Part shown: one piece after another, positions 25,099 to 62,407 of the stretch
Layout: each line of letters begins with the position of its first letter
How positions within the stretch are numbered: the stretch's first letter is position 1
Position numbers and translations under genes: made by a program
NCBI GenBank assembly: GCA_021018995.1
Contig: CM037598.1
Coordinates: forward strand, 75,410,671 to 75,474,670
Direction of reading: 5' to 3'
Source: Chloranthus sessilifolius
Lineage: Eukaryota; Streptophyta; Magnoliopsida; Chloranthales; Chloranthaceae
Length of the DNA stretch: 64,000 nt
The notes under the pieces: generated by a model
Seen by the model: only the letters and a program-made list of their open reading frames with translations
Databases searched by the model: none
Told to the model about the DNA's origin: nothing

Positions 25099-26125
25099 AC
25101 TCAGTTGACTTTTAAAATTTTCCTTAAGATTGAGGGAGGGTCTAGGACCTTCTTTATTACATCTTTAATGATGGATTGCATGTGTTATGATGTACCATAG
25201 GTGATACGTATGAGCATGAGCACACGGAGCCGCGTGGGACCTTGATGCTTGGAATTTCAAAGACTTGAGGTAGGGAACACCTTGAACATATACTTTAATT
25301 TGCAAGAGTATGTATGTAGTGATATATAATTTAAATCGGAAATTGTTTTAGCTAAGTAAAGTTTTGTGAAAAGGGTGTGTATGTGACACCAACAGTGTAA
25401 CTAAGAATAAGACATCCCCAGGGGATGAGAAAGTAACAAGATAACCAAAGGATAAGAGAAATTGGATGCATCCCAGGGATATAGACAAGATTGAGTAACA
25501 TTCGATAAGGCCTAATTGATATAAGATAACACACTTACACGGTAAACAATTATATGTAAAGCACCTGTTATTTTTGTTATTTGAGGTTTGACCAGGATAC
25601 CCCACCAACGTGGCGGGATACCCACGACTGACGCGGTAGGATATCCGTGATCGATACGGCGGCAAAACCATAAACCAGTACGGAGGTTTATCCGTACACA
25701 GTAAGTACATCCCAGGGATGTTGAGATAAGATTGAATCCCGTCGCCGATTCCCAGGAAAAAGGGGCTTGGGTAGTTTTGTATTCCCAGGGAATACGTATA
25801 ACAACTGTCTATTTAGACGACGATGAAGGGTATCTCATCGGAGCTCGATGCTATATTGCTCGGGGATTACTTAAGTTGAAGATTTAAGTTTGCCTTAGGC
25901 CTTTTCAATGTCATTCATGATCTAGTAAAAGAGATGTGAAAACTGTAAACTGTTCATTAAAAGCAAATGTACTTTACCATCTTTTCAAACTATTTTCTCA
26001 GTAATGGCATAGATCCAGCATGCTTAAAATATCATGGAATATATGTGAGATTTTAACTTATATGTTCACTGTGTTTGTTCCCTATTGAGCTAAGATGTAG
26101 CTCACCCTTTAGACTATACGTCCCA

Positions 26126-26230
26126 GGTCCAGTACTAGCAGCAGCGGAGGTATCGGGTGACGTGGATCCGGGTGAGTCGGACCGCACGCCCCTGAACGAG
26201 TTGGAGCCACCTCCAGAGGACTTCTTCTAG
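26126..26230 (+). other. LTR micro-ORF segment ending in EPPPEDFF
   Basis: After CTATACGTCCCAG the frame reads 34 codons of acidic sequence (SGDVDPGESD, then ELEPPPEDFF) and stops. Related LTRs keep the same frame and tail (29,085-29,183; - strand 34,890-34,786 and 47,498-47,394). It begins at a splice-acceptor-like CAG/GT. Confidence 0.5.
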
Positions 26231-27744
26231 AGGACTCTGCTGTGCATTTTGAGAGAGTTGTTTTGTGAGCTTATTGGGTACGACTTGGTATGTCAAGCCT
26301 TTATTTATGTTTAAACAATGTAATTAAATTCAGATAATTCTTTTGGGCGAACCATTTGGGATGATCAGTTATCATCGATGGTTTGGATCGGTTCTCCACT
26401 CATGCAGGGGCATGAGGGTAGAACTGTCTTTTGAGAGAAGGTTTAATGTCATGATGTTTTCGCTTTGAGTTATCATCTGTTTCTTTTGGTTATAAGTTGC
26501 TTGATGTACCAATGTTCTGTACTTAGTTGGGGCATGGTCTGGAGGATCGTGCTGATGGCACGGGTTTCGGGGTGCCAAAATTCGGGCTGTCACATCACAA
26601 GTGTGAATCAGGGAACTGACATGAAATGCTTGACTTTCTTACCTATCGGTGTAAGCTAAATAAAGGAGGCATTCGCAGGCCATATTGTAGTTGTTGAGAG
26701 GTGTATCCTCAATCGCGGGTACATATCACATCCCGTCACATATCGTGATCTGCTGCATATCGTAATCAGATGGAGGGAAATTGACACAAACGAGGTATGG
26801 GTGGCATCACACGAATGTCTAGAAATAAGGTCAAGTGACCAGATAATATGATGTAAATGTAATGGTGAAGGCTTTCAAAAATTATGTCAGATTGGGTGTA
26901 TCATTGCTCACACCAACGATGCGCCAGGGATGCCTTTCCAATGGACATTTGTGATTTCTCAAAACTGAGTATACTTGGTGTTCGATTTCCCAGGGGAAAG
27001 AATGGATTGGGGTGATGAGAGATAGAATTTTGATAGATTGGGATTCTGAAAATTTGGATTTCTAACTTAAGATCAATTCGGTGAAAACTGTGGAACATGT
27101 GGCTTTCAAGTCGTCACAAAGCAGATGTGACATCCCAAAATTTTTTGATTTCCTAACAGGTCCGACTCAGTGCGTGTGTCCGACAGGTCACGCACCTGAC
27201 AATATAAATTTTTTAGAGTAAGTTAAAGTGTAAGAATACATCCCGAGTGAAAAAGAATGAGTGATAATCTGAACAGTTAGATGAAGTACCGTATACTGGC
27301 GTGCGGTGTATTGGCTTAACACCCTAGACTGAGTCTTAAGTATAAAAGCAAAATGATAAAAGAATTTAATTTCTTTTGCCTTGATTGTTTGAGAAGCTTT
27401 TGCTTTGTTGGTTAGAGAAGAGAGAAAGAGAGCTCTAGACTTTCTTTCCCCCTACTACTAGAGAGTGAGGTGTTGTGTGTGCAAGCTTGAAGTTCGATGT
27501 AAAATTTGTGGATTGAGGATTGACGAAAATCCCCAAATTCTGACTTTGAAACCCTCTTTTGGGAGAGATAATGTGGATCGAGGAATCGATCACTTAAGGG
27601 TGGGCAAAGATGTGTTAAATTGTGATTCATAGTTATGCTAGGCTTTAGTTAAGTTATGAGTGAAAAATTAGAAGCAAAAGATTTAAATTTGAGAAAAAAT
27701 GAGTGAAGAAAGAAGAAACCTGTGTTTTTGAAGAATCTATCAAA

Positions 27745-34113: not shown

Positions 34114-34785
34114 TGTGATAGCCCGGATTTCGGCACCCCGAAACCCGTGCCATCAGCACGATCATCTTGACCGTGCCCCTTAGCTAAGCACGAAACATTG
34201 GTATATCAAGCAAAATGAAGTAGTAAATGAAACTGCGAAATTTAAATCTATATAAAAGCATTTCTCAAAAGACAGTTCTACCCTCATACCTCTGCATGAA
34301 TGGAGAACCGATCCGAACCATCGATGATAGCAATCACCACGGATGGTTCGCCCCAAAAGAATAATCCCAAAACCCAATATATACATTGTTCAACCAAAAC
34401 AAGGCTTGACATACCAAGCCTGTGACAGCCCGGATTTCGGCACCCCGAAACCCGTGCCATCAGCACGATCATCTTGACCGTGCCCTCTTTGCTAAGCACG
34501 GAACACTGGTATATCAAGCATCAAAAGTACTATAAATGAAATTGTGGAAAATAATTCTATATTAATTGGCTTCCCAAAAGACAGTTCTACCCTCATGCCT
34601 CTGCATGAATGGAGAACCGATCCGAACCATCGATGATAGCAATCATCACGGATGGTTCGCCCCAAAAGAATAATCTCATCAATGTATATATATATATACA
34701 TGGTTTAAAACAGAATCAAGGCTTGACATACCAAGCCGTACAAAAACCTCTCCAATAATCTCTCAAAGTGGCACAACGGAGTCCT

Positions 34786-34890
34786 CTAGAAGAAATCCTC
34801 TGGAGGTGGCTCCAACTCTTCGCCGGCCGCAAGGTCCGACTCGCCGGGATCAGCGTCTCCTGAAGCCGCGGCAGCTGCTAGTAGTGAACC
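34786..34890 (-). other. LTR micro-ORF segment ending in EPPPEDFF
   Basis: After TACGTCGCAG the - strand frame gives 34 codons with SGDADPGESD and ELEPPPEDFF before the stop. The frame is also open upstream to 34,992. Confidence 0.5.
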
Positions 34891-35884
34891 TGCGACGTAT
34901 AGTCTATAGGGTGAGCTACATCCTAGCTCAATAGGGAACAAACACTGTTGAACATATAAATTATAACTCACATATATTCTATGATATGCCATGCATGATG
35001 TATCTATGCAATTCAGTTTAAAAGCATTTCGTTTCTGATTACTTATATTTTCATTTTCTCAAGAATAATGCTGAAAAGGCCAAAAGCAAAACTTAAACTT
35101 TCAACTTAAGTAATCCCCGAGCAATATAGCATCGAGCCCCGATGAGATACCCTTCATCGCCATCTATATAGACAGTTTTAATGTATTCACGAATACCAAA
35201 TAGTACCCAAGCCCCTTTCCCCTGGGGATTGGTGGCGGGGTTTCACTTGTCTCAATCAACACCCCTGTGCTTACTATGTACTGGATAAGCTCCGTGACCG
35301 CCTCACGGTTTCGCGCCAGACGGGTCCACGGATATCCTGCCGTGTCGGTCGTGGATATCCCGCCACGCCGGTGGGGGTAACCTATCAAACCTCAAATAAC
35401 AAAAATATCGATTGCCTTACATATAGTTATTCACCGTAAGTGTGCTATTTTATTTAGGCCTATGGGACATGATTCAATCCTTGGATACATCCCTGGGATG
35501 TATCCATTTACTTGCATCACACCTGATGCTCTTATCTCTTTACTTCTTCATCCCCTGGGGATGGCTCATTAGTTTACTCTTATGAATGTCACACACACAC
35601 ACACTTTTCACAATCCTTTAAGCAGTAGAATATTTGAATGGAAATTCATATCACTACATACATGCTCTTGTAAAATAAGGTACATGTTCAAGGTGTTCCC
35701 TACCTTAGGTCTCTTATCGATTCAATGCATCAAGGTCCCACTCGGCTCCTTGTGCCCACTTCCATACGTATCACCTATGATACCATTAAACACACTCGAA
35801 ACATTACAAAAGATGTAATGAATAAGTCTCAAGACCCCCCCCTAGAGTCTTGAAGTAAGAATCAAAAGTCAACAAAAACTAGGT

Positions 35885-36312
35885 CAGTCGACTAGTCGAG
35901 TTCCTGGTTCGACTAGTCGAAATCCAACTCGACTAGTCGATTCTCAAAATCGATTAGTCGAGGTCCAATTTTGATTAATCGATTCTCAAAATCGATTAGT
36001 CGAAATCCCCTGTTCTAACTGTCCAATTTTCACTTAAATAATTGATCATACAAAATCGACTAATCGAGTCCAATTCGACTAGTCGAAATCCTTACTCGAC
36101 TAGTCGAAATCCAATTTCGACTGGTCGATTTCCTCCAACCCATTTTTACTCCTCACTGGAGGCTCTCAGTCGACTAGTCGACACCCAACTCGACTAGTCG
36201 AAATTCAAAGTCGACTAATCGAAATTCAATTCGATTAGTCGAATTCGTGGTCATCTGACTTTTCAACTTCTTGGTGAATTTCGATTAATCGAGTCCCAAT
36301 TTCGATTAGTCA
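35885..36312. repeat. Palindrome array, TCGACTAGTCGA type
   Basis: About twenty copies of TCGACTAGTCGA or variants (TCGATTAGTCGA, TCGACTAATCGA). The first steps are 21, 20 and 21 bp. Confidence 0.9.
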
Positions 36313-38059
36313 AAATCCCCAGATTCAGCCTTCTTTGGCTGTTCTTCCCCAATCTTTTCTCAGTTATTTTCTAAGCAATATTCCTACAATTTCCACCCAT
36401 TTTAACCACAATTTATTCTATAAATCTACACCATTTATTTACAAGAATCTCACCTTAAATCAACCTCAAATTGATTTAAATGTAGGGTTGGAGGGTTAGG
36501 GTTTCCAGCCTTTGTCTGAACAGATCCTCCGCTTCGAATCTGGTGCCTTGATCCCAAGAAATCCCCTTCCAACAACTTGCAATAATTCCTCACTAGCTCC
36601 TTTACTCCTCTCTTTCTCTCTCTCTCTCTTCTTTACTCCTCTCAACAACCAAAATATGAAAATTAGGATTTTCAACCCTTTTTATCTTATCTCTTTTCTC
36701 GGTGTGGAGCACATACACACCCGTCGGTGTATGTTACTCTACACACTCCTCTATCTCTCCACTCTTCTACACTGGTTCACACATCACATCCGCTCATCTC
36801 ACCCTAAGTTCATCAATGAACTATCTTATGGTCAAACCTAAGACCAATCGGGCACGGATCCCGAGGTCCTCATTTGACGTGATTTTTTGGGTTATTACAA
36901 AGTCGTACAAATCCCTATCAAAAAGCCCTCAAAGCGGCACAACGGAGTCCTCTAGAAGAAGTCCTCAGGAGGTGGCTACCGCAAGTCCGACTCACCGCCG
37001 GCTCCTCTCAAGCCTCCTGTTGCTAGTAGTGGACCTGCGACGTATAGTCTATAGGGTGAGCTACATCCTAGCTCAATAGGGAACAAAACACAGTTGAACA
37101 TATAAATTATTACCCACATATATTCCATGATATGCCATGCATGATGTGTCTATGCAATTACTGATGAAACAGTTAAAAAGTATTACATTTTACTGGTAGT
37201 TTACTCGTGTCTTTTATTTACTCATGAATAATACTGAAAAGGCCTAAAGCAAAACTTAAACTTTCAACTTAAGTAATCCCTGAGCAATATAGTATCGAGC
37301 CCCGATGAGATACCCATCATCGTCATCTATATAGACACTTTTAACGTATTCCCTAGGAATACAATATAGTACCCAAGCCCCTTTCCCCTGGGGATTGGTG
37401 GCGGGGTTTCACTTGTCTCAAATCAACACCCCTGGGGTGTGCTTACTGTGTACGGATAAGCCTCCGCACTGGCCTACGGTTTCGCCGCCGTATCGGTCAC
37501 GGATATCCTGCCGTGTCAGTCGTGGATATCCCGCCACGTCGGTGGGGTACCCTATCAAACCTCAAATAACAAAAATATCGGTGCCTTATATATAGTTATT
37601 CACCGTGTAAGTGTGCTATCTTATATCAGTTAGGCCCTATCAAACATGATTCAATCTTGGATACATCCCTGGGATATATCCATTCACTTGCATCACACCT
37701 GATGCTCTTATCTCTTTACTTCTTCATCCCCTGGGGATGGCTCATTATAATTACTCTTATGGATGTCACACACACACACTTTTCACAATTCTTAAACAAT
37801 AAAACATTTTGAATTTGAATTCTATATCACTACATACATGCTCTTGTAAAATAAAGTACATGTTCAAGGTGTTCCCTACCTCAAGTCTTGTTTGATCAAC
37901 GCATCAAGGTCCCACGTGGATCCTTGTGCACTAGCTCACACGTACCACCTATGGTACCACATAACATGTGAAATACATCACTAAAGATGTAATCAAGAAG
38001 GTCCAAGACCCTCCAAGAATCTTAAAGTCAAACTCAAAAGTCAACATAAATTAGCTCAG

Positions 38060-38494
38060 TCGATTAATCAAACTCCAAAATCGATTAATCGAAGGTCAAT
38101 ATCGATTAATCGATTCTCAAATCGATTAATCGAGGTTCCCATTCGATTAATCGAAACCCAATTCGATTAATCGAAATTTCCTACCTATCATGTCGATTCT
38201 CAATTCGAGTGATCGAATTTCCAAAATCGATTAATCGACCCCAAAGCGATTAATCGAAATTCTAAATCGATTAATTGAATTCCCATTTCGATTAGTCGAT
38301 TTCTCCAAACTATTTTCTTTCCTCCACTGGAGTTCACTGTAGGTTCCCAGTCGATTAATCGATATTCAAATCGATTAATCGAAATCCAAAGTCGATTAAT
38401 CGAAACTCAGTTCGATTAATCGAACTCGGGTTCCTTGACTTTTCAACTTCTTGGCGAATTTCGATTAATCGAATCTCAATTTCGATTAATCGAA
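38060..38494. repeat. Palindrome array, TCGATTAATCGA type (3' LTR)
   Basis: The counterpart of the array at 48,521-48,981 in the 5' LTR, with two units fewer near its start. Units are mostly perfect. Confidence 0.92.
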
Positions 38495-39062
38495 ATTGCC
38501 AGATATTCTTTGAAATTTCCCCAACCTTTTTCCACTCTTTTTCCTCTACTTTTCTAAACCATTATCCTATAATTTAAACCATTTTTAACTACAATTTACC
38601 CTCTACAACCTATGCATTTTATTCACAAAAATTTACCTTTAATCAATCTCAAATTGATTTCAAATCAAGTGGTTGGAAGGCTAGGGTTCCAGCTTTGGCT
38701 TGAACGGATTCTTTGCGCAGAATCGGCCTCTTTAATGCTTGAATCCCCCTTCCAATCACCCACAATAACTCCTTGCTTGATCACTCTCTTTACTCCTCTC
38801 TCTCTCTCTTCTTTACTTCTCTCTCAACAACCAAAACTATTGATTTTAGGGTTATTAAACCCTTTTATCTCCCCCTTAGCTTGTGTGTTGAGCACATGCA
38901 CCTCGATAGGTGTATGTGACTTTAGATTTACAACACACACCACATAGCCACACAACCCATCACACCCCATGCTAACTATTGGACTTTTATTTGGTCAAAC
39001 CTATGACCGATCGGGCACGGATCTCGAGGTCATAGTTTAGTGTGATTTTTCGGGCTATTACA

Positions 39063-39572: not shown

Positions 39573-40649
39573 TCAGGTGGGTGTAGTGGGCGCGGAGTGG
39601 GCTGGCGGTGTCGGTGAGGCTGCTGTGTGAGAGGTGGCCCTCTCCACTAAAGGCTCGGCTGGGTGTGCCCCACCCACGGGTGGGTCCTGCTGTGGTGGTG
39701 GTGGCGGTGCGACTGCTGCTGGTGCTGCTGCTGCTGGAGCGGGACCCGGAGCAGGTAGGGTCTGCTTAAGCAGGTTGTAGCTACGAGTCCATGAAGACAT
39801 GGAGAACGTCTTCACGCAATCCATAGCCCTCACCTCGTGAGGTGAGATGGTGTAGGAGGGATTGTTGGAGTAGCACTCCAACATGCTCGAGATGAGGCGA
39901 GCATAGGGCATCTTCTCCTTGGGTCGGAGGTTGCCTTTCATCAGTTTGCCCTTTATGTACCTCATCCCCTCGAGGACGAGCATGGTGGCATCAAACCACC
40001 GGCCACAGAAGGCCGCGTAAAGTGCCTGTTGCACTTTTTCCACGCGCTCGGTATTGTGGCGCATAGGGTAGAGATTACACTTGATCACCGAGTCAAGCAT
40101 CCACATATAGTGGGGAAGGTCAACCCTCTTTATGGAGGATCCCGACCCCTTTTTCCCGTTTGTCATGCGGGTCATGATCTCTTCAAATCTCACTTCCTCT
40201 TCAAAGGGTGGGAAGAGGGTGGTCTCGGGTGTGAAGTCGAGGTAGCATTCAAGCACCTCGTGTATGTGACGACGAGTGATCGTGTACTTTCGACCCTCGA
40301 TGGTGGTCTTGATCACATCATCGGTCGAGCCATCCGCAAGCCCTTGGTAGAATAATCTCACCAATCTAGGGTAGTAAGAACCCCGGATTGGTTTGAGAAG
40401 GTTGCCGAGACCGGCGTTGTTGAGGTAGTTTCGAGCCCATTGGGTCTTGCCCGGTACATCAGGATTTGTGAATAGGGTTGGGTCAATAATGTATTCGACC
40501 TCAAAGGTCTTTGCAGTCCACCATTCATTTGGTTGCACCACGTTAGTGGGTGGTGGGGGCATGGGGGTCGATTCGCGTGAAGACTCGCGCGAAGATGCGC
40601 TCGTCGAACTAGAGGTGGTCTCCGATGCCGACGGTGATGGAGTCCTCAC
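39573..40649 (-). CDS. Extra sense ORF after pol; putative plant transposon protein-like domain
   Basis: An open frame of 358 codons on the element's own strand, between the palindrome array and the 3' LTR. Residues 1-35 are Ser/Pro-rich. About 40-290 form a compact domain: NEWWTAKTFEVEYIID, YYPRLVRLFYQGL, TITRRHIHEVLECYL, VIKCNLYPMRHNTE, then MPYARLISSMLE. The rest is Ala/Pro/Gln-rich and probably disordered. The layout (a retained arm/face helix pair, then NLYPMRHNTER and a helical middle) resembles the plant-specific putative plant transposon protein domain family found in many retroelements. A related but decayed copy sits at the same place in the element at 52,138-62,407 (60,233-61,486). 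The biochemical role is unknown. Coding text may start further upstream (up to about 40,745). A TATA-like box lies at 40,969-40,982. Confidence 0.7.
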   Translation of the reverse strand: MRTPSPSASETTSSSTSASSRESSRESTPMPPPPTNVVQPNEWWTAKTFEVEYIIDPTLFTNPDVPGKTQWARNYLNNAGLGNLLKPIRGSYYPRLVRLFYQGLADGSTDDVIKTTIEGRKYTITRRHIHEVLECYLDFTPETTLFPPFEEEVRFEEIMTRMTNGKKGSGSSIKRVDLPHYMWMLDSVIKCNLYPMRHNTERVEKVQQALYAAFCGRWFDATMLVLEGMRYIKGKLMKGNLRPKEKMPYARLISSMLECYSNNPSYTISPHEVRAMDCVKTFSMSSWTRSYNLLKQTLPAPGPAPAAAAPAAVAPPPPPQQDPPVGGAHPAEPLVERATSHTAASPTPPAHSAPTTPT

Positions 40650-40968: not shown

Positions 40969-40982
40969 ATTTTATATATATA
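40969..40982 (-). promoter_or_regulatory. TATA-like box between palindrome array and extra ORF
   Basis: On the - strand TATATATATAAAA lies about 10 bp downstream of the last palindrome and about 225-320 bp before the likely starts of the extra ORF. The older sister element has TTTATAATGG in the same relation to its array (59,971). Confidence 0.55.
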
Positions 40983-40991
40983 GGCTCCGCC

Positions 40992-41760
40992 TCAATTAAT
41001 CGAAATCCAGAATCGATTAATCGAGATTTCAAACTAGGTTAAGCCGCGTAAAATCGATTAATCGATTTCCCAAATCGATTAATCGAAAGTCAAATTCGAT
41101 TAATCGAAACCATTTCGATTAATCGAAATCGTATATGTTTAAAATTTTAAGTTTTTTGAGCTCACTGGCGTGAGCCAGTCGATTAATCGAAATCCATTTT
41201 GATTAATCGAAATTTCAAAATCGATTAATCGAAATTCACTTCGATTAATCGAAATCGTGTAGTAACTTCCAAAATTTTTAGGGTTCCTTAAGTTATTCGA
41301 TTAATCGAATTCCACTTCGATTAATCGAATTTTCAAATCGATTAATCGAATTTCACTTCGATAATCGAAATCGTTCCTCTGACTTCATATTTCTTCCAAG
41401 TCCCTTTAGTAATTCAATTAATTGAACTTCCAGTTCGATTAATCGAAATCCCAAATTGATTAATCGAATCCTCCTCGATTAATCAAAATTTCATTTTTTC
41501 CTTCCTAATTCCTTCTAACATTCTCAGTTTATTCAATTAATTGAATGCTCAATTCGATTAATCGAATTCCCAAAATCGATTAATCGATCCCAAATCGATT
41601 AATCAAAATTATAACTCGATCAATCAAAATTGCATTCTATGTCTGTTCTAACTCTTATTCAAATTTCCAGTCACTGGCAGGTGCCAGTCGACTAATCGAA
41701 CAAAATCGATTAATCAAAATTCCAAATCGATTAATCGATTTGAAATTCGATTAATTGGTT
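40992..41760. repeat. Internal palindrome array, TCGATTAATCGA type
   Basis: About thirty copies of TCGATTAATCGA or near variants, in runs spaced 19-21 bp. The same palindrome is used in the LTRs of this element. It lies between the end of pol (41,974) and the TATA-like box of the extra ORF. Confidence 0.92.
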
Positions 41761-41973: not shown

Positions 41974-43420
41974 TCACGTCCTTGGAAACAAGGTTGGATA
42001 TTGTTCTTTCACATCGGCCTCTCGTTCCCAAGTAGCCTCTTCTTTTGGATGATTGTTCCACCGAACAAGCACTAAGGGAATCACTTTAGTGCGCAGTACT
42101 TGTTCCTTTCGATCCAAGATTTCCACTGGTTCCTCTATCATGCTCATGTCCTCACACATCTCCATAGGTTGTTTTCCTAACACGTGAGATGGATCATTTA
42201 CATACTTTCTGAGCATTGATATGTGGAAAACGTTATGCACTCGATCAAACAGCGGTGGTAAACCAATGCGATATGCAACTTCACCTACGCGTCCCAAAAT
42301 TTCAAATGGTCCATCATAATGTGGGCTTAACTTCCCTCTCTTGCCAAATCTCATTACGCCTTTCATAGGTGACACTTTCACAAACACGTGCTCACCCACT
42401 TTATAGTCGACACTAGTCCGCTTCATGTCGGCGTAACTTTTCTGTCTACTCTGTGCTGACTTTAGCCTTTCTCTGATGATTCGAACGATGGTGGCGTTGT
42501 CTTCAAGTAGTTTTGGCCCTAACACAAATTTCTCACCTGTTTCCTCCCAATTGAGGGGTGATTTGCATCGTCGTCCGTACAGAGCTTCATACGGTGCCAT
42601 GCCAATGCTCGTTTGGAAACTGTTGTTGTATGCGAATTCGAGCAACGGTAGATACTCGTCCCAGTATCCTTGCATATCTAGCATGCACGCTCTGAGCATG
42701 TCTTCTATCACATGGTTCACTCGCTCTGTTTGCCCATCAGTTTGAGGATGGAAAGCTGAACTAAAGTCTAGTCGTGTTCCCATTCCTTCTTGAAATTTCT
42801 TCCAAAACTTGGACGTATATAGTGGATCACGATCTGAAACTATGCTGCTTGGAATCCCATGTAACTTTACGATCTCCTTCATGTATAAGTCTGCCAGTCT
42901 TCCTGCAGTATACATAGTATTGTACGGCAAAAAGTGCACTGATTTGGTCAATCGGTCCACGACGACCCAAATGGCATTGTGCTTCTTGGCAGTACGGGGC
43001 AATCCAACAATGAAATCCATCGAGATTGATTCTCATTTCCATTCTGGGATTGGTAAAGGCTGCATTAGTCCCGCAGGATGTCTATGATCAATCTTCACTT
43101 GCTGACAAGTCAAACACTGTGACACGTATTCAGCCACGTCTTGCTTCAGTCCTCTCCACCAGTAGTTCTTTTTCAAGTCTTGATACATTTTGGTGCTACC
43201 AGGGTGGATAGCATAATTTGACTTATGGGCCTCATCAAGAATCGTTCGTCTTAGATCGGCATTGTGCGGAATGCATAGACGACCCTTAAAAAATAAAGAA
43301 CCATCTTCTTTAACTGAGAAGTCCGACCTGATGCCTTCACTCACGTCTTGATGAATCTTTGTTAATGCCGGATCTTTCATCTGTAAATCGTGGATGTGCT
43401 CAAATATCACTGGCTTTACC
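41974..43420 (-). pseudogene. Chromovirus integrase with C-terminal chromodomain
   Basis: The - strand order is zinc-binding HHCC part (HPGSTKMYQDLKKNYWWRG, CLTCQQVK), catalytic core with [38 protein letters not shown] and SSAFHPQTDGQTERVN, then the GPY/F-like part (YDGPFEILGRVGEVAYRI) and a chromodomain-like end (VLVRWNNHPKEEATWE). The C-terminal chromodomain places it among chromoviruses, whose integrases are thought to tether to chromatin. Nearly whole, but part of a broken pol. Confidence 0.85.
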
Positions 43421-44110
43421 GATATGTGAGCCAAAAAGGATCCGGTGGCTTTTGACTCAATGTTCGCATCGTAGAATGCCAGGTCTTCCAATAATTTCCA
43501 TCGGTGCATACCCAAAACCAAACAAGCTAACTGAGCTGAACCCTTCTGACTCAATGCATCGACTACTACATTCGCCTTGCCTGGATGGTATTGTATGGAG
43601 CAATCGTAATCCTTGAGGAATTCCATCCACCTGCGCTGTCTCATGTTGAGCTCTTCCTATGTAAACAAGTATCAGAGGCTCTTATGATCGGTGAAAATTT
43701 TAAAAGTCTCACCATACAAGTAATGTCTCCAAATCTTCAGCGCAAAAATGGTTGCTGCTAGTTCCAAGTCATGAGTCGGGTAATTTTTCTCGTGTTCTTT
43801 CAGCTGTCTTGATCCGTAAGCTATCACCTTCTTGTGTTGGTTGAGTACACAACCAAGGCCATTGTATGACGCGTCGCTGTACACGGCGTATCCTCCACTG
43901 CCTGAAGGAATCGCTAACACTGGAGCCGAAGTGAGTCTCATTTTGAGTTCTTGAAAACTCTTCTCGCATGCCTCACTCCACTCAAATCTTGAATCTTTTT
44001 GTGTCAGCTTTGTGAGAGGTCCCGATATCTTTGAAAACCCCTCGACGAAACGTCGATAATAGCCTGCTAAGCCCAGAAAACTTTGGACATCGGTCACTGT
44101 CTTTGGTTGC
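43400..44110 (-). pseudogene. Chromovirus RNase H region
   Basis: Recognisable parts are [20 protein letters not shown] (thumb/connection), [36 protein letters not shown], and the end with [20 protein letters not shown]. It is part of pol between RT and integrase. Lightly damaged. Confidence 0.85.
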
Positions 44111-45430
44111 TCCCATTAAACCACTGCTTCTATCTTTGCTGGATCTATAGTGACACCATGCTTTGAGACGACATGTCCCAAAAAGCTAACCTCTTCCAAC
44201 CAAAACTCACATTTGCTGAGTTTGGCATACAATTGGTGTTCTCGTAGCGTCTGTAGAGCAATCCTCAAATGTTCTTCGTGTTCCATCTTGGATTTGGAGT
44301 ATATCAATATATCATCAACGAATACTACGACGCAGGAGTCCAAGTGTGGTTTAAACACTCGGTTCATCAGATCCATAAATGACGCCGGAGCATTCGTCAA
44401 TCCAAACGGCATCACAAGGAATTCATAGTGTCCATACCGTGTCCGGAAAGCTGTCTTCTGGATGTCCTCTGCCTTGACTCGCAACTGATGATATCCAGAT
44501 CTCAGGTCGATCTTGGAAAAATACCTTGCTCCTTGCAGTTGGTCGAATAGATCGTCAATTCTAGGCAAAGGGTAGCGGTTCTTCACAGTGAGTTTGTTCG
44601 ATTGTCTATAGTCAATGCATAGCCGCATTGACCCATCCTTCTTCTTGACAAACAAGACCGGTGCTCCCCATGGAGACACGCTCGGTCTAACAAACCCCTT
44701 GTCCATAAGCTCTTGTAGTTGTTCCTTTAACTCCTTTAACTCAGCAGGAGTCATTCTATAAGGCGCTTTCGAAATAGGCTCCGTTCCCGGTGCTAAGTCA
44801 ATGGCGAATTCCACCTCTCTCTCTGGAGGTAATCCAGGTAATTCCTCTGGAAACACGTCGGCGAAGTCTCGCACAACTGCTATCTCTGAAATGACATTCT
44901 TTTCTTCCTTGTCCTCCTTTAAGAAAGCCAAGTATCCACTGCAACCCTTTCTGATAATTTTCTCGTCCTTTATTGCTGAGATCAGTGGCACAGATGACGA
45001 CCTCACTCCTTGAAACCGAAATGATCTTCTTGTGTTGGGTTTGAAAATGACTACCTTGTTCTTGCAATTGACGGTTGCACAATGATGCGCCAACCAGTCC
45101 ATGCCAAGGATCACATCGAACCCTTGCATGTCTAACAGTATCAACTTTGCTTCCAATTCGTGCACCTCTAGGTCTCGAACTGCTACAATGATGGATTTGC
45201 AAGCTAACTCCGTGTCTACTAACTCTCCAGTCGGAATAGACAGAGATAGGACGAAGTCCAACGCCTCTGGAACAATCTTCATCTTCTTGGCGAAACGTGG
45301 AGTGACGAATGAGTGGGTAGACCCTGGGTCTATCAACACTCTAGCGTCATATCCAACAAAGCATCCTTTTTCATATATAGTTAAAGTACCTATAGTATAC
45401 ATACATACATACAATAATTTACACATCAAA
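44110..45430 (-). pseudogene. Chromovirus protease and reverse transcriptase region
   Basis: The N-terminal part has the aspartic protease wording ([35 protein letters not shown]). RT follows: [84 protein letters not shown], then [20 protein letters not shown]. This wording is characteristic of the Tekay/Del branch of chromoviruses. It reads as one long segment with few breaks. Confidence 0.9.
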
Positions 45431-45514: not shown

Positions 45515-46940
45515 TTTTAATGAAACGGGATTTTCTTTAATTTAAAAAGGGTCTCACCTTGGATGACGTCATGCACGTTCCTCCTCTCGAAAGCGGATCG
45601 CATAGGCTCTCCCCTGAACGATCGGCTTCCTTGCTTGAATGGGTCGTGGTGCTGCAACTGAAGCCGTCTTTCTTTATCCGTCTCGAGGCAATCCTTGATT
45701 AAGTGGCCCACCTTGCCACATCGGAAACAATCCCTAGTTCCCGTTCTGCAATCCACTGTCCTATGAGGCTTGCCACACTTGGCGCAAATCTCTCGAGGCG
45801 CGAAAGAAACAGTACGAGAACCCTGTGTGATAGTGGCACCAGTAGACATGGCAGGGCTCTCATAGCGTAAAGGTCTCCCCGATGCAAGTAGTGGAAACCT
45901 CTGTTGGTGTTGTTGTTGCACCGGTCTTCCAAAACCTCCCTGAAACTGTGGTCTCTGATTTTGGGCCACGAACCTCAGCTTTTTGTTCACCGGTTCATAG
46001 GTCCCCGTCCTTCCTTGTTCATTTCCTCCTCGCTGCTGCTCTCTCTGTCTATATCTATTTGTATTTTCCTCTTCCACAACCAATGCCTTACTCATGACCT
46101 CTTCATAGGTCCTCAGCTGAAATGGAGCTATGCCTCCCCTAACCTCAGGCTTCAAACCTTGCTGAAACCTCTTGGATTTCATCACTTCGGTAGCGACGTA
46201 ATCAAGAGCAAAACGGGCAAGTCGTAGAAACTCCACCCCATATTCTCTCACTGTCATTCTCCCTTGCACTAATTGTAGAAATTGTATTTCAAGCTGATTC
46301 CTCACCACTTCCGAAAAATATTGTTTGTTGAACTCCTCAACAAACTCCTCCCAAGTCCAAGGCAACTCTGGGGTCTCCTGAGCCCGAGTCCGTATCACGG
46401 ACTTCCACCAAGGCCCAGCCTCCCCATCCAACATATAAGCTGCCCATCTCACACTCTCATCTTCCGTGCATGTCAGCACGCTAAAGACTTTCTCCATCTC
46501 CATAAGTCAGTTCTCGGCGGCCATTGTGTCTGCTTGCCCAGAAAATGAAGGAGGTATCATCCTCCTAAACTCTGTAAAGGATGAGGGCACAGGGAGCGCA
46601 GGTCCTACAGGTGGAGTAAGTGGCTGTTGTTCTCTTGACGCATGAGCTGCAAAGGATGCGGCTTGTTGTGCCATGGCAGCTGCCATAGTCTCCATAGTGT
46701 GCATCATCCTTTGTCGCTCCTCTCTATCTTCTTGTCTTTCTCTCACTGTCTCTTGTTCTCTTAGATCTTGATCCTGTCGATCTCGATCCTCTTCATCATG
46801 CTGTCAACTACTACTGCCCCCTGGGGCCTCAGTACCTCCTAAAGGCACTCTATTAGTAGGAGAGATGTAATCATCTCCACTACGTAGACTCCTCTGTTAG
46901 CCTCCCCTTGGTCGGCCTCTTCCTCTAGATGACATTTGCG
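45515..46940 (-). pseudogene. Chromovirus gag region
   Basis: It begins near 46,935 (an SSRGRGRPRG-like start), has an MMHTMETMAAAMAQQAA helical part, then the retrotransposon gag domain (DGEAGPWWKSVI, WTWEEFVEEFNKQYF, QGRMTVREYGVEFLRLARFA, RFQQGLKPEVRGGI), and ends with two zinc-knuckle-like motifs, CAKCGKPHRTVDC and CFRCGKVGHLIKDC. Gag would form the particle and bind RNA. Slightly damaged. Confidence 0.85.
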
Positions 46941-47026: not shown

Positions 47027-47039
47027 CTTTGATACCAAC
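47027..47039 (-). other. Primer-binding site, initiator Met tRNA type
   Basis: On the - strand TTGGTATCAAAGC follows the 5' LTR end directly. It is close to the initiator-methionine tRNA site TGGTATCAGAGC commonly used by plant Ty3/gypsy elements. Confidence 0.85.
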
Positions 47040-47393
47040 TGTGACAGCCCGAATTTTGGCACCCCGAAACCCGTGCCATCAGCACGATCATCTTGACCGT
47101 GCCCCTTAGCTAAGCACGGAACATTAGTATATCAAGCAAAATGAAGTAGTAAATGAAACTGCGGAATATAAATCTATATAAAAGCATTTCTCAAAAGACA
47201 GTTCTACCCTCATGCCTCTGCATGAATGGAGAACCGATCCGAACCATCGATGATAGCAATCACCACGGATGGTTCGCCCCAAAAGAATAATCCCAAAACC
47301 CAATATATACATTGTTCAACCAAAACAAGGCTTGACATACCAAGCCGTACAAATCCCTATCAAAAAGCCCTCAAAGCGGCACAACGGAGTCCT

Positions 47394-47498
47394 CTAGAAG
47401 AAGTCCTCAGGAGGTGGCTCCAACTCTTCGCCGGCCGCAAGGTCCGACTCACCGGGGTCAGCGTCTCCTGAAGCCTCGGCAGCTGCTAGTAGTGGACC
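47394..47498 (-). other. LTR micro-ORF segment ending in EPPPEDFF
   Basis: The 34 codons on the - strand (GPLLAAAEASGDADPGESD, then ELEPPPEDFF) are nearly identical to the 34.8-kb copy, with the frame open upstream to 47,591. Confidence 0.5.
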
Positions 47499-48520
47499 TG
47501 CGACGTATAGTCTATAGGGTGAGCTACATCCTAGCTCAATAAGGAACAAAATACAGTTGAACATATAAATTATTACCCACATATATTCCATGATATGCCA
47601 TGCATGATGTGTCTATGCAATTACTGATGAAACAGTTAAAAAGTATTACATTTTACTGGTAGTTTACTCGTGTCTTTTATTTACTCATGAATGATGCTGA
47701 AAAGGCCTAAAGCAAAACTTAAACTTTCAACTTAAGTAATCCCCGAGCAATATAGCATCGAGCCCCGATGAGATACCCACCATCGTCATCTATATAGACA
47801 CTTTTAACGTATTCCCTGGGAATACAATATAGTACCCAAGCCCCTTTCCCCTGGGGATTGGTGGCGGGGTTTCACTTGTCTCAAATCAACACCCCTGGGG
47901 TGTGCTTACTGTGTACGGATAAGCCTCCGCACTGGCCTACGGTTTCGCCGCCGTATCGGTCACGGATATCCTGCCGTGTCGGGCCGTGGGATATCCCGCC
48001 ACGCTGGGTACCCTATCAAACCTCAAATAACAAAAATATCGGTGCCTTACATATAGTTATTCACCGTGTAAGTGTGCTATCTTATATCAGTTAGGCCCTA
48101 TCAAACATGATTCAATCTTGGATACATCCCTGGGATATATCCATTCACTTGCATCACACCTGATGCTCTTATCTCTTTACTTCTTCATCCCCTGGGGATG
48201 GCTCATTATAATTACTCTTATGGATGTCACACACACACACTTTTCACAATTCTTAAACAATAAAACATTTTGAATTTGAATTCTATATCACTACATACAT
48301 GCTCTTGTAAAATAAAGTACATGTTCAAGGTGTTCCCTACCTCAAGTCTTGTTTGATCAACGCATCAAGGTCCCACATGGCTCCTTGTGCACTAGCTCAC
48401 ACGTACCACCTATGGTACCACATAACATGTGAAATACATCACTAAAGTTATAATCAAGAAGGTCCAAGACCCTCCAAGAATCTTAAAGTCAAACTTAAAA
48501 GTCAACATAAATTAGCTCAG

Positions 48521-48981
48521 TCGATTAATCGAACTCCAAAATCGATTAATCGAATCTAATTCGATTAATCGATTTCCAAAATCGATTAATCGAAGGTCAA
48601 TATCGATTAATCGATTCTCAAATCGATTAATCGAGATTCCCATTCGATTAATCGAAACCCAATTCGATTAATCGAAATTTCCTACCTATCATGTCGATTC
48701 TCAATTCGAGTGATCGAATTTCCAAAATCGATTAATCGACCCCAAATCGATTAATCGAAATTCTAAATCGATTAATCGAATTCCCATTTCGATTAGTCGA
48801 TTTCTCCAAACTATTTTCTTTCCTCCACTGGAGTTCACTGTAGGTTCCCAGTCGATTAATCGATATTCAAATCGATTAATCGAAATCCAAAGTCGATTAA
48901 TCGAAACTCAGTTCGATTAATCGAACTTTTCAACTTCTTGGCGAATTTCGATTAATCGAATCTCAATTTCGATTAATCGAA
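48521..48981. repeat. Palindrome array, TCGATTAATCGA type (5' LTR)
   Basis: Seventeen perfect copies plus variants. The first eight start at 48,521, 48,542, 48,561, 48,582, 48,603, 48,623, 48,644 and 48,664, that is 19-21 bp apart. Spacers differ in sequence, so this is not a plain tandem repeat. Confidence 0.95.
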
Positions 48982-49667
48982 ATTGCCAGATTCAGCCCCT
49001 TTTGAGCTGTTCTTCCCAACCTTTTTCCACTCTTTTTCCTCTATTTTTCTAAACCATTATCCTATAATTTAAACCATTTTTAACTACAATTTACCCTCTA
49101 CAACCTATGCATTTTATTCACAAAAATTTACCTTTAATCAATCTCAAATTGATTTCAAATCAAGTGGTTGGAAGGCTAGGGTTCCAGCTTTGGCTTGAAC
49201 GGATTCTTTGCGCAGAATCGGCCTCTTTAATGCTTGAATCCCCCTTCCAATCACCCACAATAACTCCTTGCTTGATCACTCTCTTTACTCCTCTCTCTCT
49301 CTTCTTTACTTCTCTCTCAACAACCAAAACTATTGATTTTAGGGTTATTAAACCCTTTTATCTCCCCCTTAGCTTGTGTGTTGAGCACATGCACCTCGAT
49401 AAGTGTATGTGACTTTAGATTTATAACACACACCACATAGCCACACAACCCATCACATCTCGTCCATTCATCACACCCCATGCTAACTATTGGACTTTTA
49501 TTTGGTCAAACCTATGACCGATCGGGCACGGATCCCGAGGTCATAGTTTAGTGTGATTTTTCGGGCTATTACAGAAAAAGGCTCCAAAAGAGAACCAAGC
49601 AGCTCTTAAAACCCTAAACATAACTTTATTTATATAGGGCTTGGACCAGCCATTTGTCATATATAGG

Positions 49668-52137: not shown

Positions 52138-54509
52138 TGTGACGTCCCAAAATTTTTTTGTTTTTTGAATAGTCCACCTCGATGTGCATGTCCGATAGGT
52201 CACGCAACTGAGTATAAATTCTAAGAGTGAGTTAGAATAAATTTCGAGTGAAAAAGAAAGACATAGTAATTGTATGAACCGTTGGATGATGTACCGTACA
52301 CCGACGTGCAGTGTACCGGCTTAACACCTAAAACAAAGTTTTTAAGTATAAAAGCGAACTTTGAAGGAAGTATTCATTTCCTTTGTTTGTTGGTTTGAGA
52401 ATTGGTTGAGAAGAGAGAAAAGGAAATAGTGCTTCGTTTGTTTGCGAATTTGTTAAGAATAGAAAGAGAGCTCTAAATCTATTGTGGTGCGTGCAAGATT
52501 GAAGCTCTGTGTGAAGTCCGTGGGTTTCAGATCAACGTACTTTCCAAAATTTCAACTTTGAAACCCTTTCTTACGCGTGAGCACGTGGATCGAAGAATCG
52601 ATCACTTAAAGGTGAGAAAAATTATATTAAGTTGTGATTTATAGTTATGTTAGTCTTTAGTTAGGATATGAGTGAAAGATTAGAAGAAAAGGAGTTAAAA
52701 ATGAGAAAAAAATGAGTTTGGAAAGTTGAAACTAGTGATTTAGAAAAATCTGTCAAAATCGATCAATCGAAGTAAGTATCCGATTGATCAATTTTGACAG
52801 TAAAAAATGTGAAGGTTTTTGGATTAATCGATTGATCGAAATAAAATTTGATCGATCGATTTGTGAAATTGATCGATCGAAATGGAATTTGATCGATCGA
52901 TTGTAGAGTCCGATCGAACGATTTATGCGCTGACTGATCGAATTATGAAAACAGTAAGCGTGTTAGGAGTTTATGAAGAAAACGATCGATCGAAATGAAA
53001 TTCGATCGATTGATTTGGGAACCAATCGATTGGATTGTGGCACCAGAAGTATGTGGTTTTCTGATGAAATCGACTGATTGAAATGTATTTTGATCGATTG
53101 ATTTGGGAATTGATTGATCGATTTAGACAGATTCTGAGATTTTTCTGTTTTTAGTAGGGAGAACTTTGGGAGACTTTAGGTCTTCCCAATTCTCATTGTT
53201 TATGACTTATGGGATGTGAATTGGTGTGTTCTAGGTATGAGCATGATTGGGTACCAGGAGAGCTAGCTTGGAATAAGAGAACCTTTGTTTTAGCTATGCT
53301 TTGAGGTAGGAAAAACTCTGTAACATGTGCATTTGATTATAACAAGCATGAATTTTGTGATGTGATGGAAGTGTGTGACTTATGAATTTTTTCATCAATT
53401 AAGCATGAATTTGTATATGGTTTCAAACATGAAAACGCGCGTGTGTGCACTCAGAAAAATCAAGATTTGTGATTGTGTGAATTCAGAAAGATTCGCCTAA
53501 GTGTGTGTGAGCTTCGAGATTTAAAACTTCAAATCTATTATAAATTACCACAATTCACGGTGATAAACTAAGTTAAATTTCGCACCTTGATTTAAGAATT
53601 CATGTGAAACGAACTTTTGTGCTCCAGTTGGCGGGATATCCGTTCTTTGATTATCGATTTGCGGTAATACTTCGTTCGACACAAGTCACCTCATTCGAAT
53701 GGGCTTGGGCATTTGTGAAAATAGTTAATTGAACGATGATGGTTGGGATTCCCATCGGTATATGTGTGGTTCTCGATGCTATATATGCTCGGGATTGTGT
53801 TTAAGTAATTGATTTAAGTTTCTTTGTTATAAGAGCAAGTTTTGAAAATCATGATTAGTGTGCTTTAAAATATGCATCAAATGTATGTTTTGTGTCAATT
53901 TAGTAAGAAAAAATATGTTTTAGATTATGTCATGAGATATATGTGTGATGTGAAGATCTACATGTTATGTGTGTTTCCCTATTGAGCTTAGATGTTAGCT
54001 CATCCCTCGATTATATGTCACAGGTACGGGAGTAGATGCAGGTACTGAGGATATTGATCTTGATGACCCATAGTAGGTACCAAAGGAGACTGAGCCCCCT
54101 CCTGACGAGTTCTTCTAGTGGGCTGAGCTGCGAGTGTTTAGTTTTGTGATCTGCGTGTAAGGCTTGGTATGTCTAGCCAGTTTAATTAGAACTCATGTAA
54201 TTATGCCATATAGTATTATTTTGTGAACCATGTTTTGGGTGACAGTTGGACGTCACTGGTGGTTCGGTTATGTTTTTTTGTCCATGGGTTTTTGCATGGA
54301 GTTAGAATCGTCTTTTGTCGTGATCGTGACATTATCATTTTATAGAATTGGAGGTTTAAATTCCTTATGATGACTCTATCTGCTTAGTTAGAATATATGC
54401 TTTGCTTCCGCTTTGTGTGTGGATGTATCAAGTGTTCGTAAGCTCTGGGATTGCCTTATGGGTGATCTGACGGAACGGGTTTTCAGGTGACGAAATCCGG
54501 GCTGTCATA
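52138..54509 (+). repeat. 5' LTR of the old chromovirus
   Basis: TGTGACGTCCC ... GGGCTGTCATA, 2,372 bp. TATA-like AAGTATAAAAGCG sits near 52,350. It holds a palindrome array (52,757-53,130) and a decayed copy of the micro-ORF (54,023-54,118, ending EPPPDEFF). Closely related to the solo LTR at 27,126-29,577. Confidence 0.85.
52757..53130. repeat. Palindrome array, GATCGATCGAT type (5' LTR)
   Basis: About fifteen GATCGATCGAT-like words. In the clearest run, the starts of TGATCGATCGA are 21 and 20 bp apart. Confidence 0.88.
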
Positions 54510-59593: not shown

Positions 59594-59962
59594 ATCGACC
59601 GATCAAAACCTAAATCGATCGATTGATTTGACAGAACAAAGACACAGGTTTTGTCTATGAAAATCGATCGATCGATTTTGAAACCGATCGATCGAAATGC
59701 ACACTGATCTATCAAATTCATAAAACAGAGAGCAAAATGTGAACTAACAAAAACATGGAAAACCAATTGATCGAAATGAAAATTGATCGATCGATTTTGG
59801 AAATCGATCGTTCAAAATTGAAACCGATCGATCGATATTGTCAGGCGGTAAGGTTAATATGAAAACCGATCGATCGATTTTGAAAATCGATCAATTGAAA
59901 TTATCGACCGGCGTAGTTCAAAGGGAAACCGAACGATCGATTTTGAAAATCGATCGATCAAT
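59594..59962. repeat. Internal palindrome array, GATCGATCGAT type
   Basis: About sixteen GATCGATCGAT-like words between the end of pol and the extra ORF. The palindrome type equals that of this element's LTR array. TTTATAATGG follows at 59,971. Confidence 0.88.
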
Positions 59963-60232
59963 TTGGACAATTTATAATGGAATCGAGTTTTTCTTATTCG
60001 AAAATTTCAGAAAATTTTGGAGGTTTTCTTTGGGGTTTTCTTTTGCTTGTTCTTGTAGATCATCCGTTTGAATTTTCAACAATCTTTAAAGCTTTGATTC
60101 TTCATGGGATTGAATCCAAATCTCTAAAAAAAAAAAAGGTAAACTTTAACTTCTATTGAAGTTGTTTGATTATTTCAAGTTCAAGCCTAGTTTTTTCCAG
60201 TCCTAGTTTTTAGTTTATTTTCTAGAAACCCA

Positions 60233-61486
60233 ATGGCTCCTAAAATGAGGTAGTCGTCTAAACCTTCGGTGTCGAAGGAACCCACTACACGGTGGGGTTC
60301 TTCGCAACCACCACCACCACAACCACGAGAACGACCTAATGCGTGGTGGGCGGCTAAGGGTTTTGAGACGGAATATATAATTGATCAAGCACTTTTTTGA
60401 GAGCGGGGTGTACAGGGTATAACGACTTGGGCTTTGCAATACCTTGTCAAGGCCAGATTAGAGAGCCTACTCAAACATTTAATGACTATTACTACCCCCG
60501 TTTGGTAAGGCTATTTTACCAAAATATGTACATCGGTGATAAACCAAACATCGTTTGTACTAAAATCGAAGGTATAGTGTATGAGTTTAATCATGACCAT
60601 GCGGCCGACGCACTCGAGTGCTATGTCGACTATGGTACTAGGATCGATTTACTGGAACCAAACCGTAAGCCAGTTGATTTTCACATTGTCATCGAGAAAA
60701 TGACCTAGGGAAGACAGGGGTCAGGTCAGTCAATTAAGAGAGTAGATTTGCCCAATCATCTTTGGATGTTGGACACCATCTTTAAGTGCAACCTTTACTC
60801 TATGAGACACAAGACCGAGCGGGTCGGGGTTTTACAGCAAGCGCTATTTTTAGCATTTTTGGGCCAGTGGTTTAGTGCCCCAGAGGTTGTTTTTGAGGGC
60901 ATCAAGTATTCCAGAGGAAAAATGCTGGAGGGGGAAGCGAAACCTGTAGATGAGATTCCGTATGCTCGCCTTATCTCTAGTATGATTGAAAATTATCCGG
61001 GAGATGACGAGTATACGATTTCGGATGATGAGCCCAAATTGAAAGATAATGTGAAGTTATACTCTATCAAGGACTGGAATAAAACTTTTAATCAGTTAAA
61101 GAAGAGCCTATGGGCGGAAGAACAAGTACCACCTGCACCTGATGCTCCTCAAGATCAAGAGCAACCTGAACATGCTACACCAGACCAGCCAATAGCTACA
61201 GCTCCACCTCAGCGGCGTGCTCCGACTCGTGTGCCCCCACCACCTCAGCGTGCATCTATAGCTACGATTGATGATATTCTAGCCCACGTGGCTAAGAACA
61301 ATCGTCAGTTGAGCAGGCGTCTGGATTACCAAGAGGCGTTGATGACTGAGACGATGCAACTCATGTACCCTTAAGACTATCTGCAGCGCATGACGGCGGC
61401 ACGAGCCTATATCCCTGAGGCTTCTAGTTCCAGAGCGGGAGGACTTGACGATGAGGATGAGCAGTCGGGTGATGCGGAGGATTGAG
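60233..61486 (+). pseudogene. Extra ORF region of the old chromovirus (decayed)
   Basis: It is homologous along its length to the 358-codon ORF at 39,573-40,649: NAWWAAKGFETEYIID, YYPRLVRLFYQNMY, the segment HLWMLDTIFKCNLYSMRHKTE, then YARLISSMIENYPGDDEYT, a Pro/Gln-rich hinge, and an acidic C-terminal end near 61,486. It is in the same place and orientation relative to pol and array. Broken at a few places. The shared ORF implies it was present before the two subfamilies split. Confidence 0.75.
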
Positions 61487-61864: not shown

Positions 61865-62407
61865 TGTGACATCCCAAAAAAATTTCATTTTCTGAACAGT
61901 CCACCTCCGTGTGCGTGTCCGACAGGTCACGCAACTGAGTATAAATTCTAAGAGTGAGTTAGAATAAATCTCGAGTGAAAAAGAAAGACTTAGTAATTGT
62001 ATGAACCGTTGGATGATGTACTGTACACAGACGTGCAGTGTACCGACGTACCACCTAAAACAAAGCTTTTAAGTATAAATGCCAACTTTGAAGGAAGAAT
62101 TCATTTCCTTTGTTTGTTGGTTTGAGAATTGGTTGAGAAGAGAGAAAAGGAAAGAGTGCTTTGTTTGTTTGAGAATTTGTTAAGAAGAGAAAGAGAGCTC
62201 TAAATCTAGTGTGGTGTGTGCAAGATTGAAGCTCTGTGTGAAGTCCATGGTTTCGGATCAACGTGTTTCCCAAATTTTTGACTTTGAAACCCTTTCTTGG
62301 GCGTGAGCATGTGGATCGAGGAATCGATCACTTAAAGGTGAGAAAAATTATGTTAAGTTGTGATTTATGTTATGTTAGTCTTTAGTTAGGATATGAGTGA
62401 AAGATTA
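61865..62407 (+). repeat. 3' LTR of the old chromovirus, truncated
   Basis: It matches 52,138-52,685 of the 5' LTR (for example GTTAGGATATGAGTGAAAGATTA) and then stops at the junction with an inverted pol fragment, before its palindrome array. Confidence 0.8.

Follow-up and report, generated by a model that had tools for sequence, protein, structure and literature searches.

The window analyzed here, a stretch of 64,000 nucleotides from Chloranthus sessilifolius, carries an LTR retrotransposon, E1, in which one palindrome is repeated many times at two places, within the long terminal repeats (LTRs) and immediately before the TATA box that belongs to an extra open reading frame (ORF). Related families repeat this arrangement with palindromes of their own. 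Sequence comparison suggests that the palindromes are operators, at both promoters, of a dimeric DNA-binding protein, most likely the product of the element's own extra ORF, and we put the probability of this reading at about 0.55.

Elements and arrays in the window

E1 is a Ty3/gypsy chromovirus on the minus strand, because gag, protease/reverse transcriptase (RT) and a chromodomain integrase run leftwards from the 5′ LTR. The order of gag, protease, RT and integrase and the position of the chromodomain at the integrase C-terminus are those of a chromovirus, with domain scores of 25.3 bits for Chromo (cut-off 25.1), E 8.4e-38 for RVT_1 and E 1.7e-18 for Retrotrans_gag; the rve piece scores under its own cut-off. 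Between the two LTRs there are 56 differences in 2,444 aligned bases (K2P 2.3%), and the 3′ LTR is split into two parts by a solo LTR, here called C, with flanks AAGCC/AAGTC. The features of E1 are as follows.

47040..49573 (-): 5′ LTR, TGTAATAGCCCG...GGCTGTCACA
48521..48980 (-): putative operator array of the 5′ LTR, 17 perfect TCGATTAATCGA and one single-mismatch site by palindrome count; perfect sites start at 48521, 48542, 48561, 48582, 48603, 48623, 48644, 48664, 48728, 48747, 48768, 48852, 48872, 48893, 48913, 48948 and 48969
about 47022-47039 (-): primer-binding site TGGTATCA, adjoining the 5′ LTR
45517..46503 (-): gag (Retrotrans_gag)
44116..45429 (-): protease and RT
43033..43644 (-): zinc-binding (H2C2) part of integrase
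41974..43020 (-): integrase with chromodomain
40992..41738 (-): second array, between pol and the 3′ LTR and immediately before the extra ORF
40972..40982 (-): TATA box TATATATA, 9 bp past the last (one-mismatch) palindrome
39573..40649 (-): extra ORF, sense, between pol and the 3′ LTR; Transposase_32 (PF20167), 35.4 bits, E 1.3e-8
36900..39062 (-): 3′ LTR, part one, with an array at 38060-38493
34421..36899 (-): solo LTR C, inserted in the 3′ LTR of E1, with a TCGACTAGTCGA-type array at about 35888-36292
34114..34420 (-): 3′ LTR, part two

A second element, E2, has the same layout as E1, with arrays in the LTR and before the extra ORF, and a further LTR, D, belongs to the same group as the E1 LTR and C.

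52138..54507 (+): 5′ LTR of E2, with a GATCGATC-type array at about 52759-53045
59760..59971 (+): pre-ORF array of E2, GATCGATC type, with TTTATAA 9 bp on
60748..61374 (+): extra ORF of E2, open part
61865..62407 (+): start of the 3′ LTR of E2
24194..26594 (+): LTR D, with an array at about 24688-25089

Elsewhere in the window, a further palindrome type forms a CGTTCGAACG-type array at 23173-23401 with periods of 20, 41 and 60 bp, and TCGCTCGAGCGA occurs four times at 17120-17283 as two pairs 22 bp apart. At 15499-16132 the window has tandem repeats of about 85 and 165 bp. A minus-strand ORF at 9088-9729 encodes a plant mobile domain (PF10536, E 4.3e-16) and represents another type of TE-related gene.

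The preliminary description had reported seventeen perfect palindromes placed in LTRs. All 17 are present, together with the mismatched site at 48789, and their location in a 5′ LTR stands, although the element lies on the minus strand and a second array also exists. The window holds 80 TCGATTAATCGA matches at up to one mismatch against 0.28 expected, and none of 100 shuffles got to 80, which rules out a chance origin. Within runs of the LTR array the steps are 19-21 bp, with wider gaps of 64, 84 and 35 bp; the 84-bp gap resolves into 21 + 63 once the mismatched site is included, and the 35-bp gap fits no 10-bp lattice. Among the 19 sites called there at up to two mismatches, pairwise identity is 0.89-1.00 within the palindrome and just 0.30-0.72 in the five flanking columns on each side. 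The pre-ORF array repeats the same palindrome, with 26 sites at up to two mismatches within 40750-41974, and identity there is 0.73-1.00 inside the palindrome vs 0.26-0.66 in the flanking columns. Spacers are thus clearly less conserved than palindromes in both E1 arrays, which bears out the earlier view that what is kept is the palindrome with its spacing and not a complete repeat unit. The gag-pol of E1 contains 0 sites of its own palindrome, and so does that of E2.

The distance between the last site (up to three mismatches) and TATATA is 9 bp in 8 of 11 fetched copies, and 5, 10 and 11 bp in the rest. Read by eye, the 9-bp distance is also found in the window copies of E1 and E2 (TTTATAA in the latter) and in L046. 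At the more distant loci, TATA-like AT stretches occur close to where the array ends.

Spacing and helical phasing

Exact TCGATTAATCGA pairs were counted across the 2.17-Gb genome (32 contigs), with the reversed pattern as control. Steps of 17-24 bp account for 110,381 of the 129,894 pairs at steps 12-42, so that 85% of pairs fall in 8 of 31 step values, while the control gives 0 pairs in both step ranges; the spacing noted in the window therefore holds as an excess genome-wide.

When families are pooled, whole-turn steps that include odd numbers of turns are present. Degenerate site calling in 16 arrays gave 162 steps of 15-60 bp, with steps outside that range left out: 100 lie at 20-22, 19 at 31-33 and 13 at 52-54, against five at 23-30 and twelve at 34-51, in a pool whose counts are not independent since three of its arrays, from the L024 clade, share ancestry. 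For the 52 steps of at least 25 bp, the resultant at 10.5 bp is 0.50 against a null mean of 0.14, a value reached in 0 of 5,000 draws; the L024, L026 and L014 arrays give 0.78 (n=59). Steps of 31-32 and 52 bp, seen in families other than E1, fit helical phasing and not a plain 20-bp tandem unit. E1 itself has none at 31-33 or 52-54; its steps are 18-22, 41-42, 63-64 and 72, with 35 and 56-58 off the lattice.

When each array is compared by itself with a null that uses a simple uniform-step model, 13 of 21 have values below 0.05. The values for the others are 0.73 (F_LTR), 0.34 (E1 pre-ORF), 0.27 (L024), 0.12 (L014), 0.09 (L039), 0.058 (W17) and 0.050 (W23), and L017, with two sites only, is uninformative for phasing. 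The best-fit period is 10.3-10.55 in the E1 LTR group, the E2 pre-ORF array, L026 and the L040-L043 arrays; elsewhere it is 9.85 (L016), 10.05 (E2 LTR), 10.7 (L009) and 10.95 (L020). CTTTTCGAAAAG forms 1,340 pairs genome-wide at steps 17-47, and among those listed, 50 plus-strand rows, which are copies of few arrays, have 37 steps at 20-21, 12 at 30-31 and 1 at 40. Two arrays show particular regularities: ATCGATATCGAT sites at 9450-9650 of L020 keep strict 22-bp steps with one 32-bp step, and TCAATCGATTGA at about 2950-3250 of L009 forms pairs 22 bp apart, with 52-54 bp from pair to pair.

The original proposal that all sites face one side of the helix thus finds support in the 2-, 3- and 5-turn steps of other families with different palindromes, but less so in E1, where two-turn steps are joined by off-lattice gaps and the pre-ORF array as a whole is unphased. 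A cooperative dimeric protein, as first suggested, is a plausible reader of the E1 palindromes.

The same palindrome at both places across families

Ten palindromes were counted in pre-ORF regions and in LTR or downstream regions. The palindrome is the same at both places in all five of the families readable at both (E1/L008, the TCGACTAGTCGA family, the E2 clade, L026 and the L024 clade) and differs between families, a concordance expected in 1 of 120 permutations of this small sample; counts of the three chromovirus palindromes overlap, TCGATTAATCGA and TCGATCGATCGA being two bases apart.

E1 and L008 carry TCGATTAATCGA in both places. Within the E2 clade, TCGATCGATCGA outnumbers the other types at both places in the window E2 and in 9 of the 10 copies fetched. 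The 1,800 bp downstream in L033 contain no site, and L031 (4 sites) and L035 (3 sites) are weak. The TCGACTAGTCGA family comprises 1,611 exact pairs, and in at least four places on C1, such as 11306747-11317367, LTR arrays sharing their spacers enclose an internal array with other spacers. In L046, taken from that locus, the last two sites are followed after 9 bp by TATATATA and then by a broken ORF 46-50% identical to that of E1.

L026 has nine CTTTTCGAAAAG sites before the ORF (shuffle maximum 4) and six in 4,321 bp downstream, where a polypurine run near 7655, the probable start of the LTR, precedes the group at 7921-8065. For the L024 clade, both sides were readable in one copy, since L039, which covers the pre-ORF side, and L044, which covers the 3′ end, come from one locus. 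The presumed LTR of L044 runs from about 3415 and contains four CCTSTCGASAGG-like sites, the first at 3793; L045, which probably stops short of its LTR, has 0 sites. Before the L024 ORF, only 12-base words of CCTSTCGASAGG beat shuffles (5 vs 3), and 8- and 10-base words do not. L014 has eight CTCGCGAG before its ORF (shuffle maximum 5) and no site in 3,999 bp downstream, a stretch that, by comparison with L026 and L044, probably ends before the LTR. The pre-ORF region of L017 gave nothing above shuffles or at threshold.

The sample behind these counts is mixed. Ten stretches were hand-picked from 150 listed matches (nine without stops, over a spread of identity), and L039-L043, with long frames, are five of 138 listed matches; L005 is the window E2, L007 the window E1, and L038 the same place as L006. 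Twenty random 10-kb stretches contributed four distant relatives of the extra ORF (L014, L017, L024 and L026) and arrays of other palindromes, namely TTGATCGATCAA in L016, ATCGATATCGAT in L020 and TCAATCGATTGA in L009. The commonest perfect palindrome of the random loci (L009-L028) is ACGGACGTCCGT, found 7 times. AT-only rows aside, the scan has 12 array rows, and the palindrome contains CpG in every one of them; among 249 other perfect palindromes from the random stretches, 56 contain it. This comparison is given as scan rows, and a Fisher test of palindrome types against single sites was set aside.

A mirror-symmetric change between two related LTRs

When the E1 LTR is aligned to the solo LTR C, 15 of the 17 perfect palindromes have a counterpart, and two fall in a gap. 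Across ten palindrome columns 148 of 150 cells are identical, and across the spacers 151 of 230, against only 10 of 30 in two columns, 5 and 8 of TCGATTAATCGA, which oppose each other in the dyad. From the E1 LTR to C, column 5 goes from T to C in 11 of 15 sites and column 8 from A to G in 9 of 15; the Fisher p values are about 1e-17 and 0.001. Two mirror positions changed, the rest kept and the spacers drifted by a third is what operators tracking an altered protein would look like. Since only seven of the C sites bear both changes, six bear one and two neither, the switch in this copy would be incomplete or decaying. Deamination, considered as the source of a change from CTAG to TTAA, was rejected, as CpG should suffer at least equally and yet is almost unchanged between the two LTRs.

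The extra ORF

With E values up to 0.01, PF20167 is the sole Pfam family that the extra ORF of E1 matches, which also means that the VANC domains DUF1985 and DUF287 are not found there at that threshold. Its gathering cut-off (45 bits) lies above the scores of E1 (35.4), L014 (32.9), L024 (15.9) and L026 (14.6), and the E2 and L017 pieces have no match to it. We therefore treat the extra ORFs as distant relatives only of Transposase_32 (PF20167)/Athila ORF-1. Near the start of the E1 frame (40649-40742, minus strand) there is a stop, and many of the copies listed match without stops.

The extra ORFs of E1 and E2 are 43.6-47.4% identical, compared with 44-47% for gag, 59-84% for protease/RT and 57-81% for the integrase pieces. 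The dN/dS ratio is 0.17 between the extra ORFs of E1 and L008 and 0.09-0.49 in those 44 of the 55 E2-clade pairs for which it could be computed (39 of these at 0.10-0.30), where dS is often above 1 or saturated and the ratios are uncertain. On these comparisons the extra ORF appears to be under constraint. Searches with three extra-ORF queries returned 37,343, 52,424 and 45,155 first-look candidates, which may overlap, and at least 150, at least 114 and at least 138 were scored and matched. No protein homologue at E ≤ 0.001 was found among the 7,994 candidates scored. AlphaFold modeled the E1 extra ORF with the E2 piece at a pLDDT of 41.9, and a PDB sequence match to a respiratory-chain subunit (E 0.0052, stretch 281-337) was judged to be due to chance.

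Proposed mechanism and alternatives

The mechanism that we favor would have a dimeric, sequence-specific protein binding the palindromes of the LTR and those that precede the TATA box of the extra ORF. The extra-ORF protein would itself be the binder, each family thus holding a matched regulator and its operators, and it would act on its own promoter and on the LTR in a VANC-like manner. Activation or anti-silencing, as exerted by VANC on VANDAL elements, would be favored over repression because the operators contain CpG, and the presence of CpG in the palindromes (12 array rows) makes a link to CG methylation natural. We infer binding, dimerization, the sign of the effect and the identity of the binder, the last because the sites serve two promoters and the clade of a constrained, fast-diverging gene changes with the site.

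Several results support the operator reading, namely the concordance, the 9-bp TATA register, the whole-turn steps, the mirror change, the dN/dS ratios and the CpG of the palindromes. Others count against it: the best-fit periods of the clear arrays vary (9.85-10.95), 7 of 21 arrays are not below 0.05, L014 and L033 are without sites in the downstream stretches covered, L031 and L035 are weak and L017 is siteless. The low pLDDT and the PF20167 scores under the cut-off count against the extra-ORF protein as the binder. So does the observation that Sireviruses without ENV lack the linker copies of their repeated motifs and keep those in the LTR (PMC2829016), which speaks against ENV as their only reader.

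That observation fits the main rival, in which host transcription factors bind and each family has captured the sites of a different factor at both promoters, an explanation that we consider possible but clearly the less probable. It predicts the same two-place concordance, and Sirevirus boxes matched core sites of stress factors in PLACE, with no single factor common to all (PMC2829016). It accounts less well for sites that are unlike one another across five or more families within a single genome, or for a related pair in which two mirror positions shift and the other columns stay fixed, as a shared factor would hold all of them alike.

The binder may also be the extra-ORF protein working as a repressor, in autoregulation or copy-number control, a sub-case already counted within the probability of the operator reading and one that we hold to be unlikely. 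The sites end 9 bp before the TATA box, near enough to hinder TBP, and negative feedback is common at operators that adjoin their own gene. Up to 26 sites over about 750 bp are, however, in excess of what simple blocking needs.

It is improbable that the arrays act as RNA, through hairpins for small-RNA processing, packaging or translation; the preliminary description had also raised self-paired hairpins in a transcribed leader. The E1 LTR array does fold strongly as RNA (-193.8 kcal/mol, z -12.45, with none of 100 shuffles equally good), and small RNAs have been reported at palindromic LTR regions of Sireviruses (Bousios 2016, as cited in PMC10760457), but strong folding is expected of any repeated palindrome, the pre-ORF arrays sit upstream of their own TATA box, and whole-turn steps including odd turns, present in some families, are a property of DNA and have no reason in RNA. 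A functionless tandem repeat with a 20-bp unit (and multiples of 41, 83 and 125 bp) spread by slippage or conversion, for which Tandem Repeats Finder periods of 21, 41, 83 and 125 bp over the E1 arrays and 118 bp over the second could be cited, is very improbable given the variable and poorly conserved spacers, the frequent odd-turn steps of 31 and 52 bp in other families, the CpG kept in sites while spacers drop to 66% identity between LTRs, and the fixed distance to TATA.

Comparison with known systems

The nearest parallel to an array of operators for the extra-ORF product, as we read these sites, is found in the repeated-motif (RM) boxes of Sireviruses (Bousios et al. 2010, PMC2829016). 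Like the arrays described here, RM boxes are high-copy CpG palindromes in the LTR upstream of the TATA box, vary in motif between elements and, where an ENV gene is present, mostly lie immediately before it as well (77 of 79 linker copies). The feature by which they are recognized, palindromes both in the LTR and upstream of an extra gene, is found in the present elements too. RM boxes, however, sit in Ty1/copia Sireviruses, whereas E1 has a Ty3-type gag and a chromodomain, and their core is CGG-CCG (except in Tnd-1), whereas the cores here are mostly TCGA. That paper calls them Sirevirus-specific within the set it studied and states that the internal promoter was not conclusively identified; the passages cited contain no analysis of spacing or helical phase and name no element-encoded binder.

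Extra ORFs in sense orientation between pol and the 3′ LTR, with Transposase_32 (PF20167) or Athila ORF-1 (PF03078), are known from Athila and other Ty3/gypsy elements (PMC11728184, PMC6317226), and nuclear localization is predicted for those of sunflower. The passages cited describe them as env-like or as genes of little-known function and mention no operators, and functions other than regulation through such sites have been proposed for the Athila ORFs (PMC11728184); unlike in the Athila-type cases, the Transposase_32 match here also occurs in a chromodomain element. Gene23 of Grande and TRP28 of Retand are likewise extra genes between pol and the 3′ LTR, Grande with its own promoter and a nuclear product and Retand with tandem repeats nearby, and a regulatory role has been suggested (PMC7264820, PMC11963269). 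They differ in being antisense and having other domains, and palindromic operators are absent from the descriptions cited. SIRC cassettes of Arabidopsis (PMC10342631), which combine short repeats with varied spacers, were set aside as a match, being mostly non-palindromic and described, in the part cited, without a matched gene.

Among open-access literature titles and the beginnings of abstracts, we found no account of such arrays in Ty3/gypsy elements, which is weak evidence of novelty. New here are the Ty3/gypsy occurrence, the helical phasing, the TATA register and the symmetric switch of specificity. As a tentative generalization, to which we give somewhat less than an even chance, the extra genes of plant LTR retrotransposons labeled "envelope-like" or "function unknown" would be family-specific regulators, each reading CpG palindromes of its own at two promoters, in many cases with helical phasing. 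The elements within a genome would then form groups that do not cross-react, their specificity would move by mirror-symmetric operator shifts together with changes in the protein, and the same would hold for Ty1/copia Sireviruses as for Ty3/gypsy chromoviruses and elements of the Athila type. A catalogue of extra ORFs in plant LTR retrotransposons runs to almost 4,000 entries (PMC11728184), and the arrays would give, for each family, the DNA that its extra-ORF protein should bind. If this is true, the elements carry their own matched switches, which bears on escape from silencing and on separate bursts of families, and also on how operator-protein pairs change specificity, for which TCGATTAATCGA and TCGACTAGTCGA would be a natural experiment.

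A proven example of a TE-encoded protein with specificity for the motif clusters of its own family is VANC in the VANDAL elements of Arabidopsis (PMC5735166, PMC10398659). The VANDAL elements are DNA transposons, their motif is YAGTATTAY without CpG, and the domains of the protein are DUF1985/DUF287; binding and loss of methylation are proven there, and binding is putative here. As in the elements described here, an extra TE gene is accompanied by clusters of a motif in the non-coding parts of its own family, and in VANDAL, according to the accounts cited, the protein product is specific to those motifs and motif and protein diverge together.
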